A stretch of DNA of 64,000 nt from Deroplatys truncata (Eukaryota; Arthropoda; Insecta; Mantodea; Mantidae), in contig CM060978.1 in NCBI GenBank assembly GCA_030765065.1, forward strand, positions 215,903,498 to 215,967,497, written 5' to 3'. The notes under the pieces are model-generated. The model saw only the letters and a program-made list of their open reading frames with translations. It ran no database searches and was not told where the DNA came from. Within the stretch, counting starts at the first letter, position 1. Each line of letters opens with the position of its first letter. The translations under genes were made by a program, and so were the position numbers. This document shows positions 24,227 to 60,989 of this stretch, piece after piece.

Positions 24227-25102
24227 ACTTTCTCTACTACGTATAGTAAGTAGGGGAAGTATTGCATTCCACCCAAAAATTCGATACCGAGATTTCACCG
24301 GAAATACATGTTTTGAGACCTCCTGAATCCAAAAAAAGCATTTTTGGAAACATGTCCGTGTGTGTGTCTGTGTGTGTGTGTCTGTGTGTGTGTGTGTCTG
24401 TGTGTGTGTGAACAGCATAACTCAAAAACGAACAGTCGGATAAACACCAAACTTGGTATTTAGGTTCAGTATCTTCCAGAGATGCGACACGAAGGTTTTC
24501 AAGAAAATCCCCCCACCCCAGACTACCCTTTACATGGAACATTTTTCGAAAATTTTAATTTTCTCAAAAATGGCTCTAACGATTTTGTTTAAAATATCAT
24601 ATGTTTAAGATAATGCCATGAGAAATGAAATGTATATCTCGAATTTTCTGGGAATGTCTCCAAAAGTATTCTTCATTGTGAACGACTTTTGCATAACTGG
24701 TAAACCATAAGAGATAGACAAAATTTTACTACACAAAAAATGTTGATCTCGTTAAAATACACAACTTATGTTATATACATTTCTTTTGTTGAGTGAACCG
24801 TTTTCGAGATATTGCTTGTTATTCCCTTAAATTTTCCAATACTTATACTTTTTCTCAAATTCGTTATTCATTTTTTTATGTCCTGGACTTGCAAAGAGAA
24901 TGGAATTCGACACATAGCAACCAGCGTTAAAATATTTGACCATCGCTTAAAAGCTACCATATTCCCCTTGCATCTACAAGAAAATTAGCAATAAGATTGA
25001 CATCTCGATATCTCGATTAACATAAAGCATATGGAGAATAGGCGTTTGTAAAAATAGATTGTACAAGAGTAGAGAAAGTCATGTGAGTGTAACACATCAG
25101 AT
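24227..25102 (+). mobile_element. Helentron-like non-autonomous element, copy 1
   Basis: Starts ACTTTCTCTACTACG. The inverted copy AGTAGAGAAAGT lies at 25068-25079, about 23 bp before the end. It is followed by a 5-bp stem (ATGTG/CACAT) and CATCAGAT. A GTGTGTCTGTGTG microsatellite lies about 130 bp from the start. It sits in a T-run and is joined head to tail to copy 2 by T nucleotides only. It encodes no recognisable protein. Architecture fits Helentron-associated (HINE/DINE-1-type) elements mobilised in trans by a Rep/Helicase. The assignment is inferred from structure. Confidence 0.7.
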
Positions 25103-25110
25103 TTTTTTTT

Positions 25111-25977
25111 ACTTTCTCTACTACGTATAGTAAGTAGGGGAAGTATTGTATTCCACCCAAAATTTCGATACCGAGATTTCACCGGAAATACATGTTTTGA
25201 GACTCACTGAATCCAAAAACAGCATTTTTGGAAACATGTCCGTGTGTGTGTCTGTGTGTCTGTCTGTGTGTCTGTGTGTCTGTGAACAGCATAACTAAGA
25301 AACGAAGAGTCGGATAAACACCAAACTTGGTATTTAGGTTCAGTATCTCTTAGAGATGCGACACGAAGGTTTTCAAGAAAATCCCCCCACCCCAGACTAC
25401 CCTTTACATGAAACATTTTTCGAAAATTTTAATTTTCTCAAAAACGGCTCTAACGATTTTGATTAAAATATCATATGTTTAAGATATTGTCATGACAAAT
25501 AAAATGTATATCTCGAATTTTCTGGGAATGTCTCCAAAAGTATTCTTCGTTATGAACGACTTTTTCATAACTGGTAAACCATAAGAGATAGACAAAATTT
25601 TACTACACGAAAAATGTAGATCGCGTTAAAATACACAATTTATGTCATATACATTTCTTTTGTTGAGTGAACCGTTTGCGAGATATTGCTTGTTATTCCC
25701 TTAAATTTTTTAATACTTATACTTTTTCTCAAATTCGTTATTCATTTTTTTTATGTCCTGGACATGCAAAGAGAATGGAATGCGCCACATAGCAACCAGC
25801 GTTAAAATATTTGACTATCGCTTAAAACCTACCATATTCCCCTTGCATCTACAAGAAAATTATCAATAAGATTGACATCTCGATATCTCCATTAACATGA
25901 AGCATATGGAGAATAAGCGTTTGTAAAAATAGTTTGTACAAAAGTAGAGAAAGTCAGGTGAGTGTAACACATCAGAT
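25111..25977 (+). mobile_element. Helentron-like element, copy 2 (tandem with copy 1)
   Basis: Same start, subterminal inverted repeat, 3' hairpin and CATCAGAT end as copy 1. The microsatellite is a TCTG/TGTG mixture of different length. Only a T-run (25102-25110) separates the copies, a head-to-tail arrangement that rolling-circle elements produce. Confidence 0.7.
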
Positions 25978-25984
25978 TTTTTTA

Positions 25985-26586
25985 AGTAATCATCATGTGG
26001 TAAATGAAAAGACAAAAGTAAAGTTCTAAGTTTGGCTTAATGCAAAATATTAACCAGGTAAAAAGATATACAGCTTATTTTTTGTATATAGATAACTTGT
26101 ACATATCTTGACAATTCAGATATCATTTGTAAGATAATAAATTCAATTCATTCAGTCACATAGGATTCAGTAGATGACTATCTGAATTTTCACAGGTGTA
26201 ACAAAAATATATAGGCTTCAACTGGCAAACCATACACGGTCAGGAAGGTAATGAGAAGTGGCCTTTTAAAAGAGGTGTCAAAAAGCAGTGTAAACAAAAC
26301 AAAAGCCTGGCACTTTGAGAGCATTGTTACCACTAGAGTGTTCAAAGCAAATCTTTAAGACTTACGGGAGCATTTCAGTCTACTCAAGAAGCTAATGAAT
26401 AACACTGAGAAAATCAGGAAACCAATTAGATCCCTACAAATGAGTGGCACAACTTCAATCATCCGCCCCCAATTGTCTTCCACTCGATATAGCTGCACTG
26501 AGGACACTTAACAACCTAACCTATTGGAACTTTGGAGATTTCTTGATCAAATCTTATTCCACTGGGAAGGTTGCACCCATATTTTT
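25985..26586. other. Spacer between Helentron-like copies, unrecognised
   Basis: The left half is AT-rich. The right half (26230-26570) is more balanced with a short frame (about 80 codons) that matches nothing I recognise. It may be part of an unidentified older element. Confidence 0.35.
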
Positions 26587-27438
26587 ACTTTCTCTACTAC
26601 GTATAGTAAGTAGGGGAAGTATTGTATTCCACCCAAAAATTCGATACCGAGATTTCACCGGAAATATATGTTTTGAGACCCCCTGAATCCAAAAAGAGCA
26701 TTTTTGGAAACATGTCCGTGTGTGTGTGTGTCTGTCTGTGTGTCTGTGAACAGCATAACTAAGAAACGAACAGTCAGATAAACACCAAACTTGGTATTTA
26801 GGTTCAGTATCTTCCAGAGATGCGACACGAAGGTTTTCAAGAAAATCCCCCCACCCTAGACTACCCTTTACATGGAACATTTTTCGAAAATTTTAATTTT
26901 CTCAAAAACGGCTCTAACGATTTTGATTAAACTATCATATGTTTAAGATATTGTCATGACAAATAAAATGTATATCTCGAATTTTCTGGCAATGTCTCCA
27001 AAAGTGTTCTTCATTATGTGCGACTTTTTCATAACTGGTAAACCATAAGAGATAGACAAAAGTTTACTACACGAAAAATGTAGATCGCGTTAAAATACAC
27101 AATTTATGTCATATACATTTCTTTTGTTGAGTGAACCGTTTGCGAGATATTGCTTGTTATTACCTTAAATTTTCCAATACTTATACTTTCTCAAATTCGT
27201 TATTCATTTTTTTATGTCCTGGACATGCAAAGAGAATGGAATGCGCCACATAGCAACCAGCGTTAAAATATTTGACTATCGCTTAAAACTTACCACATTC
27301 CCCTTGCTTCTACAAGAAAATTATCAATAAGATTGACATCTCGATATCTCGATTAACATGAAGCATATGGAGATTAAGCGTTTGTAAAAATAGTTTGTAC
27401 AAGAGTAGAGAAAGTCATGTGAGTGTAACACATCAGAT
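26587..27438 (+). mobile_element. Helentron-like element, copy 3
   Basis: Well-preserved copy with all hallmarks. The left flank ends ATTTTT and the right flank begins TTTT, so it lies inside a T-run and has no other target duplication. The microsatellite is shorter than in copies 1 and 2. Confidence 0.7.
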
Positions 27439-28348
27439 TTTTCCTTTATAAACATAAAAGAACATATCACTGATGTATTCAAAATAAATAGGTTTGAGGA
27501 ATTTAGTAACTCCTTTGAAATGGCTATGCCCATCATAACAATAATATATTAATTGTGGCAAGCTTCCTTGAACTTCACAGCCTCAAGGATCCTCTTTTTT
27601 TGTTTGTTTGTTTGTTTGTTTGTTTAAGGGTGTATGAGAGTATGAAAAATTATAGCACATAACAAGTTATAGTACCACATGGAAAAATGGGGAATGGTAG
27701 AGGAATATTTGCACTTCAGAGCTGAACAGATGAAACTGTCTAGGACTGCATGTAGTTTACTGGAAGAAGACAAACAGAAATAAAATTAAATGTCTGTCAT
27801 TTTTACTACAATTTCTCACTTATATAGGTATTTATTTAATTCACGCAGACATGCATTTATTAGCCATTGCTCTAGATCACAAAGAAAATCGCTAACACAG
27901 ATAATAATGTATATACACGTTTGATATTATATTCTGAAAGCATTAATACTTATATTTTATACTAGCTGTGTTACCCAACATTACATAGATGCATTTTGAT
28001 ATTTAAAATTTTATATTATGATTCATAAGAACTGATGCTTAGATATATAAGTAAACAGTGACAGATTTAACACAGTGACATTGAGTTTTGTCAACATTTC
28101 ATAGTATTTTATGCTGAAAGAACTAGCCAGTTGAATTTGCAATAATTATCTACTTCAGCATCAAACACACAAATATACACACTTTCTCTTTATACATAAA
28201 TAAGGACAAAATAAAAGTGGTGATCTGATTTATTTTACCTCTGTTAAAGAGCTCAATTGAATCTTTGTTCTTCTAATCTAAGAAAATTTGTGATTGCTGT
28301 GCAGTTTTTGTAATTGGGTTTCACGAACATAAGTAACAAACAAATATG
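27439..28348. other. AT-rich stretch with a (GTTT)n microsatellite
   Basis: A GTTT repeat lies at about 27600-27625. Nothing else is recognised. Confidence 0.5.
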
Positions 28349-28622
28349 TCACTAGAAAAATAAATTTTCACACATGCATATTGTTTTTACCTTTAGTAAA
28401 CAGTGGACAGCCTTTGTAGGGTGACCCACTCAGTGGTTGTTGTGGACTTAGGTCTTGGATTCATTTTAGGGTGGTTAGGTTACAGTGGAGGGGGGGATTT
28501 GGGTAACCTATGGTATTTACAACAGTAAAAACAAAGATGCATGATTAACCCTGCAAAATGGCCATCCAGTATTTACTGAAGGTAAAAACAATGTGCATAT
28601 GTGAAAGCTATTTTCCTAGTGA
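28349..28622. repeat. Fold-back repeat with arms of about 70 bp
   Basis: The left arm from 28349 (TCACTAGAAAAATAAATTTT and onward through GTTTTTACCTTTAGTAAAC) is matched in inverse orientation by the right arm ending CTTTTCCTAGTGA-like at 28622 (TTTACTGAAGGTAAAAACA in the middle). Arms are about 70 bp and imperfect. The G-rich centre (28465-28505) includes a run of seven G. It is probably a miniature inverted-repeat element. No clear target duplication was found. Confidence 0.6.
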
Positions 28623-28754
28623 TTTAATACCATGCAACAGTGAATAAAATATGAAATTAATATGGTTGGCAACATTCAGATTTCAGTCAGTCTTATTCAT
28701 TTGTGATGTTTAACATGCCTGACACTAGGCAGTACAAGATTCTTTCTCTTTATA

Positions 28755-29742: not shown

Positions 29743-30543
29743 ATACCAAGAGAATAGCTTAATGAATGATGGATGGGTAAGTAATTTACGGAACATTTTG
29801 GAGAAAAATGGGTTAGGAGACATGTGGAGAAGGGGAGAAAATAACTTGAAAAATTTTTGGAAAAAGGCGAGGAAAAGACTGGAAGATATAGAAATACAAA
29901 TCATGTTCAGTGAGGTTGCCAAAAAGAGCTCATTAGTTTGTTATAGGTCAATGAAAAATACATGGGGTAGGGAAAACTATATAGACATAGTAAATAAAGA
30001 AGAGAGAGAATCTATTGCATGGATAAGAACCGGAACATGGAGGCTAAGAGGGTTAAGACAAGGTATTCCTCAGAACCAATGTCCGATATGTGGTGGTACT
30101 GAAGACATTGAACACATAGTATTTAAGTGCCAAGGAACAGAAAATTGGAGAAAAGAATTTTTTAATAAGAAGTGGTTGAAGAGGGATAGAAATACGCTTA
30201 TGAACGAAATGATGTGCAAGGACGCTAGAAGCATTGGACAGTTTTTGTGTAAAGTAAAAAATAAATGGCTTTGGACAGTGGATAGAGAAAAGTAAGAGGT
30301 AGCGTATCTTACTTTGAATGGAAAACTATGGTGAATGTGTGATGGTTAAGTAATCAATAAATGAAAAGTGAAAAAAAAAGTGGAAATGGGACATGAAAAA
30401 AAAAAAAAACTGAAAAAAAGAGCAAGATAATTTATTGACAAGAAATTGTAAAATGTAAATAAACTGTAGTGATTGTCTACTGAATAAGTGACCAGGGTCA
30501 AAATGCAGTAGACAATCAAATTTGTAAAACTCTTAGCACAATA
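29743..30543 (+). pseudogene. LINE family A, copy 1 (3' fragment)
   Basis: 5'-truncated non-LTR retrotransposon. A frame at 29762-30295 encodes the ORF2 C-terminus, including CPICGGTEDIEHIVFKC, a CCHC zinc-knuckle motif common at the end of LINE ORF2, then QFLCKVKNKWLWTVDREK and a stop. The 3' UTR carries A-runs and a 13-bp perfect hairpin at 30470-30518. The 3' end is CTTAGCACAATA. Copies 2 (34361-35316) and 3 (52312-53700) share these parts on the minus strand. This frame is intact over 177 codons but lacks the reverse transcriptase. Clade not assigned. Confidence 0.85.
30470..30518 (+). repeat. 13-bp hairpin in LINE family A 3' UTR
   Basis: Arms TGATTGTCTACTG (30470-30482) and CAGTAGACAATCA (30506-30518) pair perfectly around a 23-nt loop. 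The same arms are intact in copy 2 (34385-34397 and 34421-34433) and partly decayed in copy 3. A role in recognition of the 3' end by the element's own reverse transcriptase is inference from other LINEs. Confidence 0.75.
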
Positions 30544-31861: not shown

Positions 31862-31863
31862 TA

Positions 31864-34131: not shown

Positions 34132-34133
34132 TA

Positions 34134-35885
34134 CAGTTAAACCTCACCTATATGTTATTCACATCTACATTTTTTGCAAATATACACTAAATTTTTAGGC
34201 ACTGAACTTTATCCATTAATGTTTAGCTCAAGTATACATTTTCTAATTAATGCGTCACATTTTTGTGGTCCTAATGTAAACAAAATATTAATTTACTTAC
34301 TCATTTATACGTTATGTTTATGCTATGTTAAGATATATTATGCATGGAGCACAAAACAGTATTGTGCTAAGAGTTTTACAAATTTGATTGTCTACTGCAC
34401 TTTGACCCTGGTCACTCATTCAGTAGACAATCACTACAGTTTATTTACATTTTACAATTTCTTGTCAATAAATTATCTTGCTCTTTTTTTTCAGTTTTTT
34501 TCATGTCTCATTTCCACTTGTTTTTCACTTTTCATTTATTGATTACTTAACCATCACACATTCACTATAGTTTTCCATTCAAAGTAAGATGCACTACCTC
34601 TTACTTTTCTCTTTCCACTGTCCAAAGCCATTTATTTTTTACTTTACACAAAAACTGTCCAATGCTTCTAGCGTCCTTGCATATCATTTCAATTATAAGT
34701 GTATTTCTATCCCCCTTCAACCACTTCATTAAAAAATTCTTTTCTCCAATTTTCTGTTCCTTGGTACTTAAATACTATGTGTTCAATGTCTTCATTACCA
34801 CCACATATCGGACATTGGTTCTGAGGAATACCCTGTCTTAGCCTTTTTAGCCTCCATGCTCCGGTTCTTAACCATGCAATAGATTCTCTCTCTTCTTTAT
34901 TTACTATGTCTATATATTTTTCCCTACCCCATGTATTTTTCATTGGCCTATAATAAACTAATGAGCTCTTTTCGGCAATCTCACTGAACATGATTTGTAT
35001 TTCTATATCTTCCAGTCTTTTCCTTGCCTTTTTCCAAAAATTTTTCACGTTATTTTCTCTCCTTCTCCATATATCTCCTAACCCATTTTTCTCCAAAATG
35101 TTCCGTAATTTACTTACCCATCCATCATTCATTAAGCTATTCTCTTGGTATTATATACATTGTCTTAACACATTACTTTTTCCTAGATTTAAAGTTCTGA
35201 AGCAAAATTTCAAAGCTCTTTCCATTATCTTCCCCTTAGTTGTCACCATGCCCATCTTTAATTGTGCTACCTGTCTCACAATTGACTTCAGTAGCCCTAG
35301 TATTTCTCTACAAAACGGAATGTTGGGTGAGGTATCAATATTTTTTAAACAAATTTTTGCTTCATACATGTTAACAATGCAGTTGGGCAAAAGTCATTCT
35401 TCTCCAAGTTGTATCTGATGATGATGGTGATGAAGATGCAGGCCTAAGTAATAAAAGTGTGCACAGGATGGATGAAACAATTTAAGCTCTAGAATTTACA
35501 CACAATTTCTATCACCACAAACCCTAAATGATGGAAGTATTTCTGTCGCAGGATCATATAATCGACTAATGTATGACTCTGTGTAAAAATCAAAGATGCA
35601 AAGAAAAATTAATGATTTTTTTTTAACCAGTGTAAAGCATCAGTACTCAACTTTTTGTTTAGTTGGAACTAGAATAGTAGTACTAGTATGCATATAAGAC
35701 TTTAATAGTATATTATGTTCATTGTTTATGCATTGTTTTGTTATATTAAATAACACATAATTAGCTTCATAATAATCTAAAAACCTGCAGTTTCATTTTA
35801 TAATCAAATTAATTCTTTACATTTTCTCATTTATACATTATTTTAGCTCTCTTGCATTGAAAACATAATTGTATAATACTAACTG
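34134..35885. mobile_element. Candidate pogo/Tigger-like remnant interrupted by a LINE
   Basis: The left end is CAGTTAAACCTCACCTATAT after a TA. The right end is TAACTG followed by TA. The AT-rich subterminal zone repeats words such as CATTTATACGTTA, as in pogo-type elements with CAGTTRAACCTCR termini. To the right of the inserted LINE, a short frame VVSDDDGDEDAGLSNKS resembles the acidic tail of pogo transposases. The catalytic core is not visible. The right terminus match is only 6-8 bp, so this is tentative. Confidence 0.35.
34361..35316 (-). pseudogene. LINE family A, copy 2 (3' fragment)
   Basis: Minus-strand copy of the family at 29743-30543. Its 141-codon frame at 34707-35132 keeps CPICGGNEDIEHIVFKY, where the last zinc-ligand Cys is replaced by Tyr, followed by a frame break. 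The 3' UTR hairpin is intact and the 3' end is at 34361. Similarity to copy 3 continues upstream to 35316 (coding of MFCREILGLP type) and then stops, giving a 956-bp 5'-truncated insertion inside the pogo-like remnant. Confidence 0.85.
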
Positions 35886-35887
35886 TA

Positions 35888-36998: not shown

Positions 36999-37869
36999 AC
37001 TTTCTCTACTACGTATAGTAAGTAGGGGAAGTATTGCATTCCACCCAAAAATTCGATACCGAGATTTCACCGGAAATACATGTTTTGAGACCTCCTGAAT
37101 CCAAAAAAAGCATTTTTGGAAACATGTCCGTGTGTGTGTCTGTCTGTCTGTCTGTGTGTCTGTCTGTGTGTCTGTGAACAGCATAACTCAAAAACGAACA
37201 GTCGGATAAGCACCAAACTTGGTATTTAGGTTCAGTATCTTCCAGAGATGCGACACGAAGGTTTTCAAGAAAATCCCCCCACTCCAGACTACCCTTTACA
37301 TGGAAGATTTTTCGAAAATTTTAATTTTCTCAAAAATGGCTCTAACGATTTTGATGAAAATATCATATGTTTAAGATAATGTCATGAGAAATGAAATGTA
37401 TATCTCGAATTTTCTGGGAATGTCTCCAAACGTATTCTTCATTGTGAACGACTTTTGCATAACTGGTAAACCATAAGAGATAGACAAAATTTTACTACAC
37501 AAAAAATGTAGATCGCGTTAAAATACACAACTTATGTCATATACATTTCTTTTGTTGAGTGAACCGTTTTCGAGATATTGCTTGTTATTTCCTTAAATTT
37601 TCCAGTACTTATACTTTTTCTCAAATTCGTTATTCATTTTTTTTATGTCCTGGACATGCAAAGAGAATGGAATGCGCCACATAGCAACCAGCGTTAAAAT
37701 ATTTGACTATCGCTTAAAAGCTACCATATTTCCCTTGCATCTACAAGAAAATTACCAATAAGATTGACATCTCGATATCTCGATTAACATGAAGCATATG
37801 GAGAATAGGCTTTTGTAAAAATAGTGTGTACAAGAGTAGAGAAAGTCATGTGAGTGTAACACATCAGAT
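36999..37869 (+). mobile_element. Helentron-like element, copy 4
   Basis: Well-preserved isolated copy with the 12-bp inverted repeats, TGTC-type microsatellite and CATCAGAT end. Flanked by T-runs on both sides (CTTTTTT before, TTTTTTT after) and no longer duplication. Confidence 0.7.
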
Positions 37870-40713: not shown

Positions 40714-41953
40714 CACTATGTGATCAAAAGTATCCCCACAAACAAACGTTTCTCATCTTAGGTGCATTGTGCTGCCACCTACTGCCTGGTACTCATTATC
40801 TGCGACCTCAGTAGTCATTAGACATCGTGAAACAGCAGAACGGGACGCTCCATGGAACTCACGAACTTCGAACGTGGTCAGGTGATTGGATGTCACTTGT
40901 GTCAGAGGTCTGTACGCAAGATTTCCACACTCCTAAACATCCCTAGGTCCACTGTTTCTGATGTGATAGTGAAGTGGAAACGTGAAGGGACATGTACAGC
41001 ACAAAAGCGTACAGGCCGACCTCATCTGTTGACTGACAGAGACCACCAACATTTGAAGAGGGTCGTAAAGAGTAATAGGCAGACATCTATCCTGACCATC
41101 ACACAGGAATTCCAAAATGCATCAGGATCCACTCCAAGTACTATGACAGTTAGGCATGAGGTGAGAAACCTTGGATTCCATGGTCAAGCGGCTGCTCATA
41201 AGCTACAGATCACGCAGGAAAATGCCAAACGACGCCTCGCTTGGTGTAAGGAGCGTCATCATTACATGATTGAACAGTGGTAAAACGTATGGAGTGACGA
41301 ATCACGGTACACAATGTGGCGATCCGATGGCAGGGTGTGGGTATGGCGAATGCCCGGTGAACATCATCTGCCAGCATGTGTAGTGCCAACAGTGAAATTC
41401 AGAGGTGGTGGTGTTATGGTGTGATCGTGTTTTTCCTGGAGGGTGCTTGCACCCCTTGTTGTTTTGCATGGCACGATCACAGCGCAGACCTACATTGATA
41501 CTATTTTAAGCACCTTCTTGCTTCCCACTGTTGAAGAGCAATTTGGGGATGACGATTGCATCTTTCAACACGATCGAGCACCTGTTCATACTGCACAGGC
41601 TGTGGCGGAGTGGTTACATGACAATAACATCCCTGTAATGGACTGGCCTGCACAGAGTCCTGACTTGAATCCTATAGAACACCTTTGGCATGTTTTGGAA
41701 TGCCGACTTTGTGCCAGGCCTCACTGACCTACATTGATACCTCTCCTCAGTTCCCCACTCTGTGAAGAATGGGCTGCCATTCCCCAAGAAACCTTTCAGC
41801 ACCTGATTGAAAGTATGCCTGCGAGAGTGAACACTGTCATCAAGGCTAAGGGTGGGCCAACACCATATTGACTTCCAGCATTACCGATGGAGGGCGCCAC
41901 GAACTTGTACGTCATTTTCATTCAGTTGTCGGGATACTTTTGATCATGTAGTG
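40714..41953 (+). mobile_element. Tc1-like transposon, nearly intact
   Basis: Terminal inverted repeats CACTATGTGATCAAAAGTAT and the complement of ATACTTTTGATCATGTAGTG are flanked by TA at 40712-40713 and 41954-41955. Length is 1240 bp, with a single long transposase frame inside. It is clearly younger than the LINE it interrupts. Confidence 0.92.
40852..41871 (+). pseudogene. Tc1-like transposase, one frame with three stops
   Basis: A single 339-codon frame, close to the usual Tc1 size of about 340 residues. N-terminal paired-like HTH: MELTNFERGQVIGCHLCQRS, RKISTLLNIPRSTVSDVI and a KRTGRP hook. Catalytic Asp 1 lies in VWSDESRYT, Asp 2 in IFQHDRAPVHTA, and Glu in SPDLNPIEHLWHVLE, with 34 residues between Asp 2 and Glu (DD34E). 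The C-terminus reads IESMPARVNTVIKAKGG. No frameshift is seen. Inactivation is by in-frame stops at 41281 (TAA), 41422 (TGA) and 41725 (TGA), each explainable by one C-to-T or G-to-A change. Confidence 0.9.
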
Positions 41954-45570: not shown

Positions 45571-45822
45571 CTTAAAGCTTTCTATCCTTATGTGATATAC
45601 TTGCAATTCCATTCCCATCTTCATACTTTTGCTGAGCACTATATTAACACATCCACTCCCTATCATGGTAACGCCACTCAGGAAAAAAAATACAAAAAGT
45701 GCTACAGAATTTTTTAGTACTGTGAACAATAAAACCATATCAATTACTTTTCAGGAGATATCACAGATTCAGATAGCTAAAAGAAACAATCACTGTCAAA
45801 AACCCTTAAATTTTGCTATATA

Positions 45823-47016
45823 CGAGGGACATTCCATATTGATTTACACTTTTTTTTTTCACCCACTCTGTACCTCTATGCCTTGACAGATACATCCACT
45901 TTTTCAACATAGTCTCCATTAAACCACCAAAATTATGCCACAATGTGGCAACTTCTCTATGCCTTCCTCTAACAGCTTTTTTGTAGTCTGTCACACCCAC
46001 ATCAGAAAGGCTGCCTGCAGTTCCTGGAATTAAGTCAGGAAGTGGGTGTGGCAGCATCTGTAATCCCATCTTAGCAATGGAGGATTGTGGTTGCCCGTAC
46101 TTTTGTGGGGACGAGCATTTTGCTTGCAGGAGCACAATTTCTGCACATTTTTCTGGCCATTTCTTTTGAATAGTACAATAGAAGCTCTGAAGAGGCACCA
46201 CATATGCCTTGTTGTTAATGATGGTCTCTGCTTCCAGCCAGTCAATGAGGATAATTCCATCCTTGTCCAAAAAGACTGTGGTCATACATTTGCCTACTAG
46301 GGAGCTGTACAGAACTTCTTTGGTGGGAGGCTGACTTTATGCTTCCACAGCATTGATTGGGTTTTGGTCTCCAGCTTATGGTAGTGAGCCAAGTGTCGTC
46401 ACCAGTCATGAGTTGGGCAATGAAGGAGATCACTGAACACATCCTTGCGCAGTAGTCTTTGTGCTGTATTTAGGGTTGGGAAGCCACCTGGCAAACACCT
46501 TCCCTATTTTAAAGTGTTTGTGCACTATGTAGTGCAAAGTGATACTGGCAAATCCTGCAGCTGCTTACAGTGCCAAGAACTTGATGTATCTGTTCTCCTT
46601 ATTATGCCACTCCACTCTTGAAATGTTGACTGGCATTGTCACAGTCACTGGTTCCTTTCTCCATTGACATGTGGCCACGTTTCCAGCCATCCACTGAGGT
46701 GTATATGGTTTTTCATGACAGCGCACTCTCTCCACACACTGCCACCAATTACCTGTTAATATTTGCAGTGTTTACACCCTCCTTCCACAGAAACTACACC
46801 ATCTAGTGCTGTCCTTGATGATCACACTCAATGTTGTCTGCTCACATAACGACAGCAGTTGGAGAAGTGTGCTTTACTTTGCAGGGTTTACACTTCTCTG
46901 TATCATCCTGCCACCTGTGGCCAGACAAAAGTCTACATACTTGTAACTGTAATGATTAGTCAAATGGCAAACCATGAATGATAAGATAAAATAAAGTGTA
47001 AATGGAATGCCCCTCA
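45823..47016 (-). mobile_element. Mariner element, decayed, complete ends
   Basis: Inverted repeats CGAGGGACATTCCATATTGA on the left and the complement of GTGTAAATGGAATGCCCCTCA on the right are flanked by TA. Length is 1194 bp, near the usual 1.3 kb for mariner. The transposase runs on the minus strand up to the left repeat. Confidence 0.85.
45830..46960 (-). pseudogene. Mariner transposase pseudogene
   Basis: Minus-strand blocks in order: QLMTGDDTWLTTISWRPKPN holds the first catalytic Asp region (GDE.W in active relatives). Next MTTVFLDKDGIILIDWLEAE, the typical mariner FWD..G...IDYL motif. The second Asp region is damaged (QAKCSSPQKYGQ in one frame, NARPHKSTGNHNPPLL in the neighbouring one). 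LPHPLPDLIPGTAG replaces the PYSPDLAPSD block, so the third Asp environment is mutated. The N-terminal third is barely readable. Frameshifts and missing motifs show that it is inactive. Confidence 0.8.
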
Positions 47017-47018
47017 TA

Positions 47019-48790: not shown

Positions 48791-48794
48791 CACT

Positions 48795-49795
48795 TAGCCT
48801 TCTTTGAACTGCTGCACCCACAAACATACCAGAAAGAATACCAACACATTATCCACATAGCCACCATGAATGGATACCAGAAAAAAACAATAGATAAGTA
48901 GATAAAAAAGTTTGAAAGACAGAAATACACCCAACAAAAAACTACTTTACTCAGACAACAAAAACTACAAACATATAGAAAGTTCACTTACCACCCTTGG
49001 ACACATCATAAATTTCAAAGGATTTTCAAGAAATACATCATCACCCTGACTCCATGAAATAACCACAATATACAGAAACTATTATGCAACAGAACAAAAG
49101 ATCCTATCCCCAACGATAAATCAGCTGGTATATATGAAATAGTTTGTAGTGACTGTAACTTGGTATACATAGGAATAACCAAAAGAAATCTTGAAATAAG
49201 ACTTAAAGAGCATATGCGATGCATTTACCAAAAACAGACAGAAAAATCAGCAGTAGCACATAATTTCTGGTCTTCAAACCATGAAATCACTCCAAACATA
49301 AAACTCTTAAAACCGGTCAACAGCAGCAATGAATTGGACATCTGGGAAAAAGTACATATCGTCAAACACAGGAATCACCTAATGAATTTCGAACTACAGC
49401 CACCCATCAGCCTTGAGGTTCATCAACCCAGCACCAGAGAACACCACTAACCACACACATTCCCCAGACAATAACTGACAAAATCAGTTGGAAACATGCT
49501 GATGATGGGAGCAAACCATCCTCCCAAAACGCATTCAAAGTAAGAACCTTTTAGTGATGTAGTGTAATACCCTCCAACTCTCTTTATTTTAAAATAGACG
49601 AATCATGTAAGCAAATAGACAGTGGATGATCAATACATGGAAAACCAAGAGTTGTGTGTATTGAGACCGTAGATTAGCATAGGCAAACCAAGAAGTGAAT
49701 CTATAGTGTAAACAGCCTAATATTTTCAAATGTTATTATTATAATTCTAAAGTGTATGTAATTTTGGGTACTGAGAAATAAATATTATTCATTCA
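48795..49795 (+). pseudogene. Penelope-like element fragment, RT thumb and GIY-YIG endonuclease
   Basis: The plus-strand frame starts with HPQTYQKEYQHIIHIATMNG, the thumb region after the Penelope reverse transcriptase. It continues through FQRIFKKYIITLTP and LLCNRTKDPIPNDKSAGIYE to the GIY-YIG domain (GIYEIVCSDCNLVYIGITKR, with both signature motifs intact and the downstream Arg in EIRLKEH). The nuclease part is open from 49100 to 49450 and ends STREHH, although two stops occur upstream. The 3' tail ends near 49795 with ATTCATTCATTC. The catalytic reverse transcriptase palm is absent (5' truncation). Confidence 0.85.
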
Positions 49796-51271: not shown

Positions 51272-51273
51272 TA

Positions 51274-52311: not shown

Positions 52312-53700
52312 TGTGCTAAGAGATTTACAATTTGATTGTCTACTGAACTTTGACCCTGGCCACTCATTCTCTAGACATCACTACAGTTCATCTACATTTT
52401 ACAATTTCCCGTCAATAAATTATGTTGCTTCAGTTTTTCACGTCCCGTTTCCACTTGTTTTTCAATTGTCACTTATTGATTATTTTATCATCACACATTC
52501 ACCATAGTTTTCCATTCAAAGTAAGATACACTACCTCTTACTTTTCTCTATCCACTGTCCAAAGCCATTTATTTTTTACTTTACACAAAAACTGCCCAAT
52601 GCTTCTAGCATCCCTGCACATCCCCCTTCAATCACTTCTTATTAAAAAATTCTTTCCTCCAATTTTCTGTTCCTTCGCACTTAAATACTATGTGATCAAT
52701 GTCTTCATTACCACCACATATCGGACATTGGTTCTGAGGAATACCCTGTCTTAACCCTCTTAGCCTCCATGCTCCAGTTTTTACCCATGCAATAGATTCT
52801 CTCTTCTTTATTTACTATGTTTATATATTTTTCCCTACCCCATGTATTTTTCATTGACCTATAATAAACCAATGAGCTCTTTTCGGCAATCTCACTGAAC
52901 ATTTTTGTATTTCTATATCTTCCAGTCTTTTCCTTGCTTTTTCCAAAAAAATTTCATGTTATTTTCTCTCCTTCTCCACAAGTCTCCTAACCCATTTTTC
53001 TCCAAAATGTTCTGTAAATTACTTACCCATCCATCATTCATTAAACTATTCCCTTGGTATTCTATACATTGTCTTAACGCATTACTTTTTCCTAGATTTA
53101 AAGTTCTGAACCAAAATTTCAAAGCTCTTTCCATTACCTTCCCTTAGTCGCCACCCTGCCCATTTTTAATTGTGCTACCTGTCTTACAATTGCCTTCGGT
53201 AACCCTAGTATTTCTCTACAAAACATCTTGTGCACCTCATCTATACTTTCCCATCCTCTATCTAATCCCCATATTTCTATACCATACATCATTTTTGCCT
53301 TCACAACCATCTCATAAACTTTTTCCAGCCATTTAACATTTATATTAGGTACTCTATATTTGCAGCTTCTAATTGCTGCCATCGCCCCTTTACCTTTTGC
53401 CAGTGCAAACTTCTTTTCTTTCTCCCATTTATTACCTCCATCTATTTTTACTCCTAAATAAATACAGTCACGCACCACCCTGCAATCTTCATTCTCTCCC
53501 TTCCACTTTTTATATTTGCTTCATTTTCCCCCCTTTTTGAATACCACAATCTGTGTTTTCTCTTGATTCACTTTTAACCTCCATTCTTTACAATATACAT
53601 CAATTGCTTGTAATGATTGTTTTAAACCATTTACTGTAATAGATCCTACCACTAGATCATCTACAAAAAGAAGTCCTTCCAAAATATAGTATATGCATAG
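52312..53700 (-). pseudogene. LINE family A, copy 3 (longest, reaches the RT active site)
   Basis: The minus strand from about 53690 encodes LLFVDDLVVGSITVNGLKQS, the reverse transcriptase catalytic box with FVDD, then WRLKVNQEKTQIVVFKKGG, CIYLGVKIDGGNKWEKEKKF and MMYGIEIWGLDRGWESIDEV up to the C-terminal zone. The zinc-knuckle end is broken by frameshifts (SMEAKRVKTGYSSEPMSDMW). The 3' hairpin is partly decayed. The 3' end at 52312 adjoins a TATTTATTTATT tract, suggesting an (AATA)n tail. The 5' end is truncated inside the palm domain. Confidence 0.85.
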
Positions 53701-54359
53701 TACTGTCAGTATTTCTAAGTCAATGAAGAAGGATCTACAATGTGTGGTCTTACTTACTTTTACAATGGTTCTTATTATCTTATCATTCTATCATCTTATT
53801 ATCATTATTAATTCACTGTAAAATGTTTGTTCCATTCTGATGATATTTAATATGGAAACCTGACAATCAAAGTGGTCCACTTTGTAAACCATTTTGTACT
53901 TCTTATGTAAACCTATGCCTTAAGTTCTGTGTAAAACTAAATCACTACATCACATATATTGTACCATTAGCACCATGAAACAATGAAAATATGCTTAACT
54001 TCAAAAGCAAAGATAAAGCGCTGCATTAACAGAATAGAAATCCAAACCCTCTAAAAGAACAAAATTTATTTTTACAACAAACTAATTAATCATTTGAAGC
54101 CTAGAGCTGTCATTTTTAAATCTCTCATAATAGTAAACAAATAATGGACAATAATCACTTCATAAAGATGAGTTTAAACATGGAGGAGGTATAATTATTG
54201 GAAGATTATCACCTCCTCAATGCAATTAGTATTCTGTAATTGAACCATGATTAGTAGATATCTAAGGTAACTTTTAATGTTACATATTTATCCATGTCAT
54301 GCTTCAGTCATATGAGTGAAATAGTCATCATGATCATTCTAGGCATTTTTAATCCTACT
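53701..54359. other. AT-rich stretch without recognised feature
   Basis: No signal seen. Confidence 0.45.
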
Positions 54360-55124
54360 ACTTTCCTGTAGTAAGTAAACAAAGCACTGCATTTCACACA
54401 ATAATTTGATAGGAAGATGTCACCGAAAATATACCCTAAATCCAAAAAAAAATAATTTTTGGAGAAAGGTCCATGTGTGTGAACAGCATATCCCAAAAAC
54501 GAAAAGTCAATTAAATGCCAAACTTTGTATTTAAGCTCATTTTCCAAGGATATGACACAAAGATTTTCAAAGAAAGTCCCACACCTCAAACTACCCTTTA
54601 TATGGAAAAATATTCATTGTTTTTCACTTTTACAAAGATAGCTGTACCATATGTTTAAGATGACAAATAAAATATACCTTGAACTTCCTGCACATAACCT
54701 GTGAAATCCTTTTCATTCTGAGTGACCTTTGCATAATTGGTAAACTGTGGGAAATAGCAAAATTTTAGTACACAAAAAAATGTAGATCTTGTAAAGCACA
54801 TGCTTTATTAAAAAAAAATTGTTGTGCCATTAACCATTTGCAAATATTCTTTTTGTTGACTTGAATGTTCAAATACTTACAGTTTTTTAAAATGCTTTGT
54901 TGCTGTTTTCTTGTGGTCGTGCAAGGAGCATGGAATTTCAAAGCCATCAAAGAGTAATTCACTTTTTAAAAATATGACAATTACTTTAACTTACCATATC
55001 ATTCTTATACCTACAGAGAATGTGAAGGTTTATCCGAATTAACATGTAGATAAAAGAATAAGGTTTTATAAGAATATGTTGCTGAAGAGTGAGTAGACAA
55101 AGTTATGTGAATACAATGCATCAG
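54360..55124 (+). mobile_element. Helentron-like element, copy 5 (old)
   Basis: Diverged but alignable throughout: start ACTTTCCTGTAGTAAG, short GTGTGTG tract, AACAGCATA-type block, 3' part GAGTAGACAAAGTTATGTG and end GCATCAG. It adjoins copy 6 head to tail. Divergence is much greater than in copies 1-4. Confidence 0.6.
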
Positions 55125-55130
55125 CTTTTT

Positions 55131-55219
55131 ACTTACTTTAACAGGTACCTAGTAAGTAGAGAAGGTATTGCATTACACCCAAAAAATTTGGTTTGGGTGA
55201 AATGCATGAAATGCATTTT

Positions 55220-55306
<87 letters not shown>

Positions 55307-55777
55307 AATAATAAAAACCAGAATTTTTGGAAAAGGATGTGTGCATGTGTGTCTGTGAATAGCATAATGCAAAAACAAAAACAAAAACTTGTATTAATAA
55401 GAAACTTAGTATTTAAGTTCACCATCTTTCAAAGATGCAACACGATTTATAAGAAAATCCCCCAAACTACCCTTTACATGGCAAATATTTCAAAATTTTT
55501 TATTTTCTCAAAATGGCTCTAACCATTGTGATTAATGTGAGATTAAGATATTTACATGACAATAAAATGTACATCCTGAATTTTCTGGAAATACGATATG
55601 AAGTCCTCTTTTGTATAATTTTGTATAATGGTAATTGTTAACAGGCAGACAAAAACTTACTATAGAGAAAATGTAGATCCCTTTAAAACACACAATTTAT
55701 TTCAAATAACTGTTTTGTGACATTAGCCATTTCCGAGACATCTATTATTGTTTTGAATTTTTCAATATTCTTGTCAT
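55131..55777 (+). mobile_element. Helentron-like element, copy 6 (old, interrupted by copy 7)
   Basis: Diverged copy that starts ACTTACTTTAACAGG and is interrupted by a (TAA)n expansion at 55222-55301. It breaks off where copy 7 begins. A degenerate continuation (ATGTCATGG, then AAAGAGTACAGAATTTC) seems to resume at about 56700, which would make copy 7 nested in copy 6. Confidence 0.55.
55222..55301. repeat. (AAT)n microsatellite
   Basis: About 26 AAT units within Helentron-like copy 6, located where other copies have an A-rich GAATCCAAAAA word. The expansion probably seeded on that word. Confidence 0.95.
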
Positions 55778-55781
55778 TTTT

Positions 55782-55914
55782 ACTTTCTCTACTACGTGTA
55801 GTAAGTAGGGGAAGTATTGTATTCCACCCAAAAATTCGACACCGAGATTTCACCGGAAATACATGTATTGAGGCCACCTGAATCCAAAAAAAGCATTTTT
55901 TGGAAACATGTCCA

Positions 55915-55966
<52 letters not shown>

Positions 55967-56684
55967 CATGTGCGTGTGCATGTGCATGTGTGCGTGTGCG
56001 CGTGTGTGTGTGAACAGCATAACTTAGAAACAAACATTCGGATAAACACCAAAGTTCAGTATCTTCCAGAGATGCGACACGAAGGTTTTCAAGAAAATCC
56101 CCCTACCCCAGATTACCCTTTACATGGAACTTTTTTCGAAAATTTTAATTTTCTCAAAAATGGCTCTAATGATTTTGATTAAAATAAGATATGTTTAAGA
56201 TATTTTCATGAAAAATGAAATGTATATCTCGAATTTTCTAGGAATGTCTCCAAAAGTATTCTTCATTGTGAACGATTTTTGCATAACTGGTAAACCATAA
56301 GAGATAGACAAAATTTTACTACACAAAAAATGTAGATCGTATTAAAATACACAATTTATGTCATATACATATTTTTTGTTGAGTGAACCCTTTTCGAGAT
56401 ATTGCTTGTTATTCCCTTAAATTTTCCAATACTTGTACTTTTTCTCAAATTCATTATTCATTTTTTTTGTCCTGGTAATGCAAAGAGAATGGAATACTCC
56501 ACATAGCAACCAGCTCTGAAAATATTTGACTATCACTTAAAGCCTACCAATTTCCCTTGCATCTACAAGAAAATTAGCAATAAGACTAACATCTTGATAT
56601 CTCGATTAACATGAAGCATATGGAGAATAAGCGTTTGTAAAAATAGTTTGTACAAGAGTAGAGAAAGTCATGTGAGTGTAACAT
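55782..56684 (+). mobile_element. Helentron-like element, copy 7
   Basis: Well-preserved body, start ACTTTCTCTACTACG after CATTTTT, with the subterminal AGTAGAGAAAGT intact. The extreme 3' end is altered (AACATTTCAAAG instead of ACACATCAGAT). It holds the longest GT microsatellite of the family (about 55917-56012). Confidence 0.68.
55917..56012. repeat. (GT)n-type microsatellite inside copy 7
   Basis: Almost pure GT with GCAT and GCGC interruptions. Frames across it encode only Val/Cys or His/Thr repeats. Confidence 0.9.
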
Positions 56685-56943
56685 TTCAAAGTGCTTTCAC
56701 TATTCAGTGGTTTCTCATGATGTCATGGAAAGAGTACAGAATTTCAAGGCCAGCACTTGCTTTTAAACATCTGACCATCAATTCTGTATCCCGTATCTAA
56801 TGGCACAGCATGACTTTTGATTTGAGGAAAACAATTAATAAATGTTTGCAAAGTTAATATAAAGATGATGAAGAATTTTTACATGAACAAGTAAGTTCTC
56901 AGGAAGTAAAAGTTTTCTATGTTAAAAATATTAACTCATTTTT
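56685..56943. other. Spacer between copies 7 and 8
   Basis: Possibly the displaced 3' part of copy 6. The end next to copy 8 may hold the last codons and 3' flank of the hAT pseudogene, since AAAATGAGTTAA on the minus strand would complete its end. Confidence 0.35.
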
Positions 56944-57738
56944 ACTTTCTCTGCTACATATAGTAAGTAGGGGAAGTATTGCATTCCACCCAAAAATTTG
57001 ATACCGAGATTTCACCGGAAATATATGTTTTGAGGCCCCCTGAATCCAAAAAAAAAGCATTCTTGGAAACGTGCGTGTGCGTGCGCACGTGCGAGAGAGA
57101 GAGAGAACAATATAACTCAGAAACGAATAGTCGGATAAACACCAAACTTGGTATTTAGGTTCAGTATCTTCTAGAGATGCGACACGAAGGTTTTCAAGAA
57201 AATTACCCCACCCCAGATTACCCTTTACATGGAACATGCTTAGAAAATTTTAATTTTTGAAATGTATATCTCGAATTTACTGGGAATGTTTCCAAAATTA
57301 TTCTTCATTGTGAACGACTTTTGCATAACTGGTAAACCATAAGAGATGGACAAAGTTTTACTACACAAAAAATGTAGATCGCCTTAAAATACACAATTAT
57401 GTCATATACATTTTTTTGTTGAGTGAACCATTTTCGAGATATTACTTGTTATTCCCTTAAATTTTCAAATACTTATACTTTTTCTCAAATGTGAATTTGT
57501 TATTCATTTTTTTTTTTTTTTTGTCCTGGTAATGCAAAGAGAATGGAATACTCCACATAGCAACCAGCTCTTAAAATATTTGACTATCGCTTAAAGCCTA
57601 CCAATTCCCCTTGCATCTACAAGAAAATTAGCAAATAAGGTTAACATCTCGATTAACATGAAGCATATGGAGAATAAGCGTTTGTAAAAATAGTTTGTAC
57701 AAGAGTAGAGAAAGTCATGTGAGTGTAACACATCAGAC
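56944..57738 (+). mobile_element. Helentron-like element, copy 8, internally deleted
   Basis: All end features are present, but about 75 bp are missing near 57255 and the microsatellite is replaced by GTGCGTGCGCACGTGCG followed by GAGAGAGA. It is inserted in an A/T-run at the 3' end of the hAT transposase reading frame. Confidence 0.68.
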
Positions 57739-59041
57739 TTTTTTATAATGCAGCTCAATTCTTTGATTTTTCTTTGCAAATAGGTTGATAATATCATCCT
57801 GAAACCTCTCTGTAAGCTGCATTTTGACTAGCGGGTACTTCTCAATATTTCTCAGTGCAAGGGATGATAATCTAATTTGGCTCTGGAAGTTGCTCAAATA
57901 GTTATTTATTCTTTTTAAAGTGGAAAATGACCCTTCATTTGCCACTAGTTGCTGGTATACTTAATATACTTAATAAACTCAGAAAGCTATGATGTTTGTG
58001 GGATAACAGATGTCAGCTCTAGTTTTTGCATGCACTGGTATAAGTGATACACTGTATTTCAACATATCTGGATACAAATAGATTGCTGCAAGCTGACTTT
58101 TCAAAGCTACAAAATCAAAGAAAGCTCTGTAATTATCTTTTAAACACGAAGACATTCTTTCATGATAGTTTATGATCATGAAAATACTTTTAATCAAGGA
58201 AAGTAAAAAATCAAAGTTTTGAGTCCTCTGAAAATCATTTGGAAGGCTTTACAGTGAACTGTATCAATGCCCTCATTATATAGCTATCTGTAGGAACATT
58301 TTCTTTCTTCCCCTCTCATTGAGTCAAAACAAATTCTTTGATATGTGATGAGCAATCAGAATAAGTGGTATCTTCCATTTTTGTCCACAGCTGATATAAA
58401 CTGTCCCTCAAACATTGGAGGTAGTCTTTAAATTGCTCAATTTCTTTAGTGCTAAATGCTACATTAAATCTTTTGGTCTGGAGGATCTTAAAGAGAGAAT
58501 GAGAAAAAATCACAAAACAAATTTCCAGTACAAAATTGAAATAAAAATTGCTTAAAAGCAAAAGAAGACCACAAACAGAAGAAATTGTTTCTATACCCCA
58601 TTCATTTGGATTTTCAATAATAGAAATAAAAGGCTTTCAATCCCATTTTTATATTCGTGGACAATTTCAATAGGTGGCTTTGATACTGCCAATGAGTTGG
58701 TGACATGGATGAAAATCTTTTCTTAAGATGCTGTCAAAAGTCTCTGTTCTCTTAATGGACTTTGAAAGAAAGATTCCAAAGCTAGGAAGAGTGGCAAGGA
58801 AAACCCTTACTTCCTTAATTAAATTGGTAGACTAGAAAGTACTAGGTTTAATTTAGTGCATAATGGTGGGAAAATATGGAATTTTTATAATACTCTTGAT
58901 TTTTTGCTTGCAGCACCATAATAGGTCTGTGTCACAAATTTAGAATAAGATTAATGCTTGCTTACAGTCCAACAGCATGATTAAATAGAAAAGTAACAGA
59001 ACAACTACCTCTCACATCTGTGAAGTGTAAAAATCATTCTT

Positions 59042-59306
59042 AAAAATTAAATTAAAGAGTTTTATTTATGGACACCTTTTAACTGCTATGGTTCTTAGTG
59101 TCCCATTCTACTTTGGGCATGAAAGACCAGAAATTTTGCTCAGAGACCTCTTTATCACATTTGAGGTTCTTGTACGTGCCTGTAAACCTATGAAATGGGA
59201 TCCACAGCTTTACTTCCCTCGGAAAAAATCCATTGCCCTCCGCCGGATTTGAACACACAACCTCATAAACTAGATGTACCACTAGACCACGGAGAACAAA
59301 CAAAAA
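59042..59306 (-). repeat. tRNA-derived SINE, copy B, with target duplication
   Basis: Minus-strand SINE starting near 59300 with CTCCGTGGTCTAGTGG (A-box) and TGTGTGTTCAAATCCGGCGG (B-box), with a body shared with 1-237 and an AT-rich 3' end at 59042. The left flank TAAAAATCATTCTT (59028-59041) recurs at 60230-60243, beyond the adjacent Helentron-like copy. This is the SINE's target duplication, later separated. Confidence 0.8.
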
Positions 59307-59309
59307 AAA

Positions 59310-60230
59310 ATCTGATGTGTTACACTCACATGACTTTCTCTATTCTTGTACAAACTATTTTTACAAACGCTTATTCTCCATCTACTTCATGTTAATTGAG
59401 ATAAACATTTGCAGACTCTATCTTATTGCTAATTTTCTTGTAGATGTAAGGGGAATATATATTTACAAGGGCAATATAGAAATACAGTAGCCTTTAAGCA
59501 CATAAATATCTCTTAATAGCTGGTTGCTAGGTGCAGCACCATTCGCTTTGCCACAGATTAATACTCTTTGAATATCCAAGACAAAAAAATGAATAACGAA
59601 TTCCCATTTGAGAAAATAAGTATTGAAAAATTTAAGAGAATAACAAGCAATATCTCGAAAATAGTTCACTCAACAAAAAAATGTATATGACATAAATTGG
59701 GTATTTTAATGCGATATACACTTTTTGTATAGTAAAATGTTGTCTATATCTTATGGTTTACCAGTTATGCAAAAGTTATTCACAATGAAGAATACTTTTG
59801 GAGACATTCCCAGAAAATTCAAGATATACATTTTACTTGCCATGAAAATATCTTAAACATATGATATTTTAATCAAAGTCGTTAGAGCCATTTTTGAGAA
59901 AATTAAACTTTTCGAAAAATGTTCCATGTAAAGGGTAGTCTGGGGTGGGGGGATTTTCTTGAAAACCTTCGTGTCGCATCTCTGGAAGATACTGAACCTA
60001 AATACCAAGTTTGGTGTTTATCCGACTGTTCGTTTCTGAGTTATGCTGTTCACAGACCGACACACACACACATACAGACAGACACACAGACACACACACG
60101 GACATGTTTCCAAAAATGCTTTTTTTGGATTCAGGGGATCTCAAAACATGTATTTCTGGTGAAATCTCGGTATCAAATTTTTGGGTGGAATACAATACTT
60201 CCCCTACTTACTATATGTAGTAGAGAAAGT
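59310..60230 (-). mobile_element. Helentron-like element, copy 9
   Basis: Minus-strand copy: its start ACTTTCTCTACT is complementary to AGTAGAGAAAGT at 60219-60230, and its end CATCAGA is complementary to TCTGATG at 59311. It lies in an A-run (T-run on its own strand) between the SINE and the SINE's second target duplication. Body and microsatellite match copies 1-4. Confidence 0.7.
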
Positions 60231-60989
60231 AAAAATCATTCTTGAACCTCACCATCACTATCAGGATTAAAGCCATAAAATTAGCATAGAAAATTTCCTT
60301 TTTTATTTCAAGGATCATTAATTTAGAAACAGCTTACACTAACTCATTTTGTATATCAGGAGAAGAACCTTGAAATGAACGTGATGACTAAATGATTACA
60401 CAGCTCCAAATCATTGCAGCTTTGAGAAGTGCATTGTAATTGCCTCTATTGGGAAATGAGTTGCTTTTATCATGGCCTTGTGTCCCTAAAAAGCAGACTA
60501 CGGTGATTAAATGTCCGACAAATTTCATATTTTGCCTTAGTAATTCGTTGTGCTTTTAAATCACAATTTCACAATGACTGCTGAGAGTGAATTAAATTTT
60601 GTATTATTCTTGCCAAATAACTTAAATTCTTTAAAACAAACAATATGATTAGTTGGTTTCCTATGTCGTTTGTCTGCCTTATAAATGTTATTTAGATCAT
60701 CATATCTAGTACTATTAAATACGTGTCTTTCTTTGGAAAATAGTACATATTCCAACAGTACATTTTGTTAAGTTTTTTACATATGCACAACCAAGGAATT
60801 CCCTCATACAAATTCATATTAAAATGCTTAATACATCTCTTTATTTTTGTTTGCAAGTTGAGACAAAGCTTCAAGGAATCACTCTCTGTTAGCTGAAGTT
60901 TATTGCTGTATGTCATTGTACTAAATGGTGTTTGTAAAGGTTTCTCAATGACAGTATGACGATTACACAATGATTCTGCCATACCAATG

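Follow-up and report, generated by a model that had tools for sequence, protein, structure and literature searches.

The Cg_HINE/pearl elements of bivalves are described as carrying subterminal inverted repeats (subTIRs) of 11-12 bp, a complementary inverted repeat (IR) of 7-12 bp that lies 1-12 bp downstream, central satellite-like tandem repeats of ~160 bp, in several cases a GTCY/GTCC/GTCK microsatellite, and a 3' subTIR followed by a palindrome, and they occupy T-rich targets with no target-site duplication (TSD) (PMC7492417). The DINE-1/INE-1 elements of Drosophila and HINE-Mo of a predatory mite are described with subTIRs, an IR (in DINE-1), a microsatellite, a 3' stem-loop, insertion into TT or a T-run and a Helentron partner (PMC4067079). 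Helitron2 has a 5' asymmetric terminal inverted repeat (ATIR) 0-2 bp from its 5' end, a 5' hairpin, a 3' ATIR just before a 3' hairpin, and insertion after TTTT without a TSD (PMC3627910). These published descriptions form the basis of comparison for a family of repeated elements in the mantis Deroplatys truncata. The family was recognised in a stretch of 64,000 nucleotides, hereafter the window (GenBank assembly GCA_030765065.1, contig CM060978.1; G000:C4:215903498-215967497 in our numbering), of a 4.29-Gb assembly in 818 contigs. It appears to be a new family within a known class of element, called the HINE below, and almost certainly a non-autonomous rolling-circle element of the DINE-1, pearl or Cg_HINE build that is moved in trans by a Helentron of the same genome. 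The first-pass annotation had classed it as Helentron-like (HINE/DINE-1-type), and this class is borne out by T-run insertion and by ends held in common with a Helentron that encodes Rep, PIF1 and an apurinic/apyrimidinic (AP) endonuclease.

Young copies of the HINE consist of the 5' subTIR ACTTTCTCTACT, 10 bp, the IR AGTAGGGGAAGT, a GT/TCTG microsatellite, ~600 bp of A+T-rich sequence, the 3' subTIR AGTAGAGAAAGT, CATGTGAGTGTAACACATCAGA and a T-run. In the first window copy, the 5' subTIR and the IR form a 5' hairpin of 10 Watson-Crick and two G.T pairs at 24227-24260 (+), the microsatellite lies at 24358-24410 (+), and the 3' subTIR, the hairpin ATGTG/CACAT and the end CATCAGA lie at 25068-25101 (+). 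The subTIRs are 12 bp long, within the 11-15 bp of the HINE/DINE-1 class, perfect in five of the eight aligned copies, with one mismatch in two and decayed in the copy at 54360. The microsatellite of the young copies and the asymmetric placing of the inverted copy AGTAGAGAAAGT, which is followed by 22 bp up to the end CATCAGA and then by the T-run, had both been correctly noted. Two other features needed qualification, since the hairpin ATGTG/CACAT is intact in five of the eight aligned copies and altered in those at 25111, 55782 and 54360, and the end CATCAGA before the T-run is absent from 55782 while 56944 has a C ahead of its T-run.

The 3' inverted copy had been described accurately, and a second one, the IR AGTAGGGGAAGT near the 5' repeat (e.g., 24249-24260), had been missed. 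It stands at +23 in all seven young window copies and in 52 of 60 sampled 5' ends, and was not detected by script in the old copy 54360. On the plus strand, the 5' hairpin has a 12-bp stem and two further pairs at -4.9 kcal/mol, with 5 of 200 shuffles as good; on the minus strand, folding does not produce it. Both departures of AGTAGGGGAAGT from perfect inversion are G.T pairs on the plus strand, and a perfect inverted copy, found at one of the 60 sampled ends, would fold at -9.8 kcal/mol, as opposed to -4.7 for the present one. Because the three old copies that cover this place have an A at both departure positions in the alignment, the perfect copy is probably the ancestral state.

Set beside Cg_HINE/pearl, the HINE has a subTIR of 12 bp, an IR of 12 bp and a spacer of 10 bp, and it shares the kind of microsatellite, the palindrome behind the 3' subTIR, the T-rich target and the lack of a TSD; unlike those elements as described, window copies contain microsatellites only, without the central tandem repeats (PMC7492417). 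All of the features listed above for DINE-1/INE-1 and HINE-Mo recur here, but the 3' subTIR is 22 bp from the CATCAGA end while that of the mite element is given as ~38-60 bp from the terminus (PMC4067079). The placing of the repeats and hairpins and the insertion after T also agree with Helitron2 (PMC3627910). The marks of canonical Helitrons (Helitron1), namely 5'-TC, CTRR-3' and insertion at A/T, are absent, as the HINE starts with ACTTTC, ends with CATCAGA and a T-run, and lies in T-runs. Antisense frames of ~105 amino acids in several copies were considered as coding and rejected, because copies disagree in the frame that follows the microsatellite, and every one of the three minus frames of the first 330 bp is interrupted by one or more stops in all eight copies compared.

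The Rep/Helicase element with matching ends, for which the first-pass annotation had proposed a search, is present in the genome. PF14214 has at least 152 matches in the assembly, where 150 of the 291 candidates were scored, and no match in 14 control genomes; among the matches listed, a hand count puts at least 18 in open frames no shorter than 2,000 amino acids. The match at C4:69431044, whose surroundings were read, defines Helentron A (10,513 bp); Helentrons B (10,509 bp), C (10,412 bp) and D are on contigs C5, C9 and C8. Both ends were compared in three copies (A, B and C), and the domain scan concerns copy A, which holds an open frame of 2,345 codons that stops 0.9 kb ahead of TGTAGAGAAAGTTATGTGAATGTAACACATCAGA and a T-run. 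Its Pfam matches are Herpes_teg_N (PF04843, 1.5e-8), DUF6570 (1.2e-16), Helitron_like_N (2.2e-27) and PIF1 (4.6e-29), and the C-terminal 221 amino acids scanned alone match Exo_endo_phos_2 (1.2e-6; 28.8 bits at a cut-off of 27.4). Inspection by eye of the same C-terminus finds YQNVNSL, GDFN, QIDIIFSN and SDHKPI, which we take to be AP-endonuclease motifs. Its Rep motif is VEFQMRGSPHEH, with the S that is regarded as a mark of Helentrons (PMC4067079). Since the predicted protein of copy A has a Rep motif of the (V/I)ExQxRGSPHxH type, a PIF1 helicase and a C-terminal AP endonuclease, the partner is a Helentron as defined. The Herpes_teg_N match, to a tegument-like deubiquitinase, is N-terminal (L071:1805-2242; protein 67-212); at the level of domains, the combination of RepHel, a C-terminal AP endonuclease and a tegument-like domain is like that of Helentrons described with a viral-tegument-like deubiquitinase (PMC9741609).

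The ends connect the two elements. The first 34 bases of Helentrons A, B and C are identical to the 34 of the HINE family, the upstream flanks of the three agree over 5-6 T only, and the three end on 31 of the 33 bases of HINE 838-870 (93.9% for Helentron A), in the coordinates of the 870-bp copy at 36999-37868 (+). Within these ends, the 5' subTIR is shared at 12 of 12 positions and the 3' subTIR at 11 of 12 (GTAGAGAAAGT in common). Likeness extends inward, to ~0.75 kb of 5' sequence, with HINE 1-642 at 94.6% to Helentron A 1-662 and HINE 1-670 at 89.8% to Helentron A 663-1312; the minus-strand window copy at 59310 matches Helentron A 663-1417 over its positions 1-770 at 88.5%. Helentrons B, C and D are 99.8-100% identical to A over the 444-448 bp before the 3' T-run, and the likeness breaks after it; these near-identical stretches and the open frames suggest that the Helentrons may have been active recently. 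No Helentron coding part lies in the window, as the first-pass annotation had observed of Rep/Helicase genes: searches with the coding parts (blastn, tblastn) were empty, and among the 68 stop-to-stop frames of at least 85 amino acids, the 20 scanned with Pfam gave no Rep or PIF1 match.

All nine copies proposed for the window are real, and each of their starts was recovered. In 28 pairwise comparisons of eight copies, likeness goes beyond chance, at 68-97% over 714-869 bp. Seven copies are young (92.2-97.7% to their own consensus) and two are old (70.1% and 67.6%). The 12-bp start ACTTTCTCTACT is exact at 24227, 25111, 26587, 36999, 55782 and 60219-60230 (minus) and has one mismatch at 56944, in line with the description of well-kept copies; the starts of the old copies 54360 and 55131 are decayed versions of it. 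Young full-length copies on the plus strand lie at 24227-25101 (97.7% to the young consensus, with exact 5' repeat, IR, 3' repeat and hairpin), 25111-25976 (97.2%; the second of a head-to-tail pair joined through a T9 at 25102-25110), 26587-27437 (97.2%) and at the reference copy (97.6%), and a young full-length copy of another subfamily lies at 59311-60230 (-; 92.8%). Farther on, an old copy at 54360-55125 (+; 70.1% to the young consensus; nhmmer 552 bits) is followed head to tail, through a T5, by the 55131 copy, whose start had been placed correctly but which is split: its 5' part runs from 55131 to 55781 (+) and it resumes at 56688 to end at ~56938 (+), with a young copy, 55782-56687 (+; 94.7%), nested inside. 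The last bases (CATCAGA) of the nested copy are lost or altered. The 3' part of the old copy is weak by sequence (E 0.009 for 56696-56782), 59 of 1,000 shuffles of its last 160 bp being as good against the end of 54360 and 457 of 1,000 against the young consensus; its end is placed by collinear distance, which agrees to ~2 bp. Through another T5 it adjoins a young copy with an internal deletion at 56944-57737 (+; 92.2%). The two old copies share 70 derived states where ~23 are expected by chance. Two old remnants had been missed in the list of copies, a 3' part at 62029-62196 (+; E 7.9e-14) and a 5' part at 62290-62420 (-; E 2.4e-10).

Target sites were studied in a sample of ends that is not random, drawn from the window, from loci of contig C1 with the exact 3' end and from the Helentron loci. 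The five bases to the left of 71 sampled 5' ends are TTTTT in 58, TTATT in five, ATTTT in three and five other words once each; the five to the right of 95 sampled 3' ends are TTTTT in 76. Six copies are diagnostic, five with TTATT and one with TTGTT on the left, and in none of the six are the left five bases repeated on the right (one of them, L062, adjoins an ATT repeat). The five TTATT copies are not one another's nearest kin, and their closest relatives among 53 full copies compared are TTTTT copies, so that TTATT is read as target. Because the left bases are not repeated, the left five bases are probably the target and the T5 on the right is probably the element's own 3' end, to which five T of the T9 between 24227 and 25111 would also belong.

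Empty and filled sites allow the T balance to be counted. Helentron D, compared with B and C, gives T8 in the empty site and T6, a full HINE (L077:177-1125) and T7 in the filled one, a gain of five, and it is the sole exact count because homopolymer lengths drift. At other sites, T5 becomes T5+T5 (L061), T5+T7 stands where the window copy of that subfamily has T7 (L049), and T5+T6 corresponds to a gain of four or five (L047). Helentron A lies in a HINE between T6 and T6, at a run of 5 to 9 (7 in four of the seven window copies), and Helentron B between T5 and T8, at a run that is 7 or 8 in six of the seven. Each datable insertion thus gains about five T. The comparison with empty sites that the first-pass annotation had recommended supports its proposal of insertion into T-runs in so far as filled sites differ by the element and ~5 T, with no other duplication; the T-runs themselves are partly new and not target only. 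Thomas et al. left the distribution of the T open (PMC4067079). Target lengths could be deduced for 37 of 51 full copies under a filter of at least four T on the left and at least five on the right, which admits T4 and drops 14 copies with mutated or short flanks: 7, 12, 7, 5, 5 and 1 targets have T5, T6, T7, T8, T9 and T11, and none has T4. Outside elements, the window has 807, 288, 75, 20, 13 and 5 runs of T or A with lengths of 4, 5, 6, 7, 8 and 9. Longer T-runs are preferred, and the insertion rate climbs steeply from T5 to T9.

A rival reading, that the family is a miniature inverted-repeat transposable element, a non-autonomous cut-and-paste transposon bounded by terminal inverted repeats and by a TTTTT TSD, would account for the T5 beside many copies (58 of 71 on the left, 76 of 95 on the right) and for the ~5 T added per datable insertion. 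It is hardly credible, since the inverted repeats lie at unequal distances from the ends (0 bp on the 5' side, 22 bp on the CATCAGA side), none of the six diagnostic targets shows a duplication of its left five bases, and the element with the same ends carries Rep, helicase and endonuclease, with no DDE transposase reported in its Pfam scans. A second rival proposal is that a Helitron2-type element proper, with Rep/Helicase and without an endonuclease, drives the HINE and that the Helentron merely shares its ends. The ends and the TTTT target do match the Helitron2 description (PMC3627910), and the genome holds further Rep matches, the ends having been examined for A, B and C; but the examined Rep locus with these ends has an AP endonuclease and the Helentron-type S, the distinguishing criterion in PMC4067079, where Helitron2 is described without an endonuclease. 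We regard this proposal as very unlikely, and we infer from the shared ends that this Helentron, not another Rep locus, mobilises the HINE in trans. Several observations weigh against the explanation by a Helentron-driven HINE. Both ends were seen in three Helentron copies and the domains in A only; the whole-protein Pfam scan of Helentron A at E 0.01 gave no endonuclease match, and phmmer of its C-terminus against PDB gave nothing credible. The 3' hairpin is by energy no stronger than shuffles (z -0.86; 44 of 200 as good), and at pure-T targets, the situation of most copies, five added T fit a 5-bp duplication too. Helentron A has no counterpart of ~100 bp of the HINE (~740-837), and ungapped agreement across the last 60 bp is 37 of 60 positions. 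Members of a family are defined by an identical subTIR of at least 11 bp, and those of a subfamily by agreement of 80% or more across the last 60 bp (PMC4067079), so the two elements are one family and two subfamilies. For the same two reasons, the unmatched ~100 bp and the 37 of 60, deletion alone does not derive the HINE from A's Helentron subfamily, unlike the mite HINEs, which are described as simple deletion derivatives (PMC4067079).

A further question of origin concerns the tandem pairs. End bypass in one rolling-circle event, giving a concatemer, has been suggested for bat and silkworm Helitrons (PMC4067079) and may hold elsewhere; head-to-tail order with a T-run alone between the copies agrees with this published view. 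For the window junctions, it is improbable. The 15 informative sites among 24227, 25111, 26587 and 36999 (microsatellite excluded) all group 24227 with 36999 and 25111 with 26587, none supports either alternative, and the bootstrap for 25111 with 26587 is 100; the 150-bp outer flanks of the four copies show no mutual match. As members of different sublineages (15 sites to 0), 24227 and 25111 were inserted separately. The copies at 55131 and 56944 are far apart in divergence (68% and 92% to consensus), which also speaks against a single event, and the pair 54360/55131 fits either origin. One, probably two, of the three window junctions are thus separate insertions into the T-run behind an older copy. 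In simulations, three or more tandem junctions arise with P 2.2e-4 (equal weights on T5+), 1.6e-4 (T4+, length-weighted), 0.0065 (T6+) or 0.0043 (length-squared), and two or more with P 0.008 (equal weights), the third junction being likely rather than certain. Special tandem targeting beyond T-runs was set aside, as the excess is mild once a steep length preference is allowed for.

HINE copies also lie inside one another, at an internal T-run in L049 and, judging from a short match, in L047, or at the T-run of HINE 115-119 (L061). Repeated 3' ends were examined at ten junctions: nine share one internal T-run as their starting point, and the remaining one (L034) is a full tandem copy. In nine cases a full copy has such a 3' module behind it; the matching HINE 5' part stands on its left in L049 (200 bp) and L047 (19 bp), and seven cases lack it. 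One repeated host site occurs in three states: with a single HINE (L049 +), with a HINE in a HINE (L049 -), and with unchanged outer flanks but no outer 5' part (L052). L052 is therefore explained directly by a nested insertion and the later loss of one of the two direct 5' parts, and the other cases probably have the same history. Movement of a 230-bp module on its own, or slippage, had been considered for these repeated ends and was replaced by nested insertion and loss; L041, which chains units resembling different subfamilies, speaks against slippage.

The Helentrons themselves may bear traces of such events. Helentrons A, B and C (L079, L073, L075) have two 5' starts, HINE 1-642 and then a second full start, and the junction GTTATTCATTTT|ACTTTCTC is the internal T-run of a HINE. 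Judging from these three copies, a Helentron perhaps landed in the T-run of a HINE and kept the HINE 5' end as its outer start. Directly past the second HINE-like stretch, at 1424-1899, Helentron A contains inverted and direct HINE pieces. It is possible, and we put it forward tentatively, that driver and parasite exchange ends and that, with the T5 of the element's own 3' end rebuilding targets, the two form a self-targeting system. If so, the autonomous element would obtain both its landing sites and its new ends from the non-autonomous copies.

A mechanism can be proposed on this basis. Rep would recognise the 5' repeat with its hairpin and the 3' repeat with its hairpin, and would copy one strand; the transferred strand, ending in ...CATCAGATTTTT, would be joined after TTTTT, sometimes TTATT, in the target. 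For Helitron2, Bao and Jurka propose that pairing of the 5' and 3' repeats undoes the 5' hairpin and signals the end of copying (PMC3627910). In the HINE, the 3' repeat, which complements the 5' repeat perfectly, may displace the weaker partner in the 5' hairpin and so mark the end of copying; a 5' hairpin that is weakened while the 3' repeat stays perfect would favour that termination switch. With long T-runs both inside it and at its 3' end, every copy offers targets to later ones, which may land in or behind it in the same orientation, to give tandem and nested clusters.

The exact 33-bp 3' end occurs 119,458 times (59,557 + 59,901; reversed pattern 0). The true copy number is higher, because four of the seven young window copies carry the exact 33-mer. 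Part of the count lies in a satellite, the first 26 places being ~3,409 bp apart, or double, at the start of contig C1. In this satellite (L001-L026, G000:C1:19011-120893), each of the 26 units fetched, of ~3,409 bp, contains one HINE, and the array is a mobile element fixed in tandem. Loci L032 and L033 are HINE copies 7.4 kb apart with identical 45 bases on both sides, probably a local duplication. Outside this genome, the exact 5' end has no match in a viral contig collection, the exact 3' end none in a general genome contig collection and a degenerate core motif none in either; among the end sequences sought in PMC full text, ACTTTCTCTACT alone matched, in papers unrelated by title.

Other elements share the window. 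Tc1-type transposase fragments (HTH_Tnp_Tc3_2, DDE_3) lie at 40831-41727, with a further DDE_3 piece at 14640-14936, and a Transposase_1 fragment (PF01359, E 1.4e-7) at 45809-46336 (-) is presumably mariner-type. A frame with a GIY-YIG domain at 49058-49447 (E 1.1e-6), which we assume to be Penelope-like, has a counterpart similar by eye at 18750-19097 with no Pfam match. Two very similar frames at 29744-30292 (+) and 34710-35150 (-), of which the former matches zf-RVT weakly and under the cut-off, and a reverse transcriptase piece at 53524-53787 (-) are remains of non-long-terminal-repeat elements. A CT-rich (CTCCCT) low-complexity run occupies 61276-61402, and ARAGORN and Rfam gave no match in the window.

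A very numerous non-autonomous family is thus tied to a Helentron with open coding copies in the same genome. T-runs blur the border between target and element, and it is the nested copies and near-identical empty sites that make the T balance countable, at about five T gained. The origin of HINE tandem arrays becomes a testable question, and the HINE and Helentron pair forms a good basis for a mobilisation assay.

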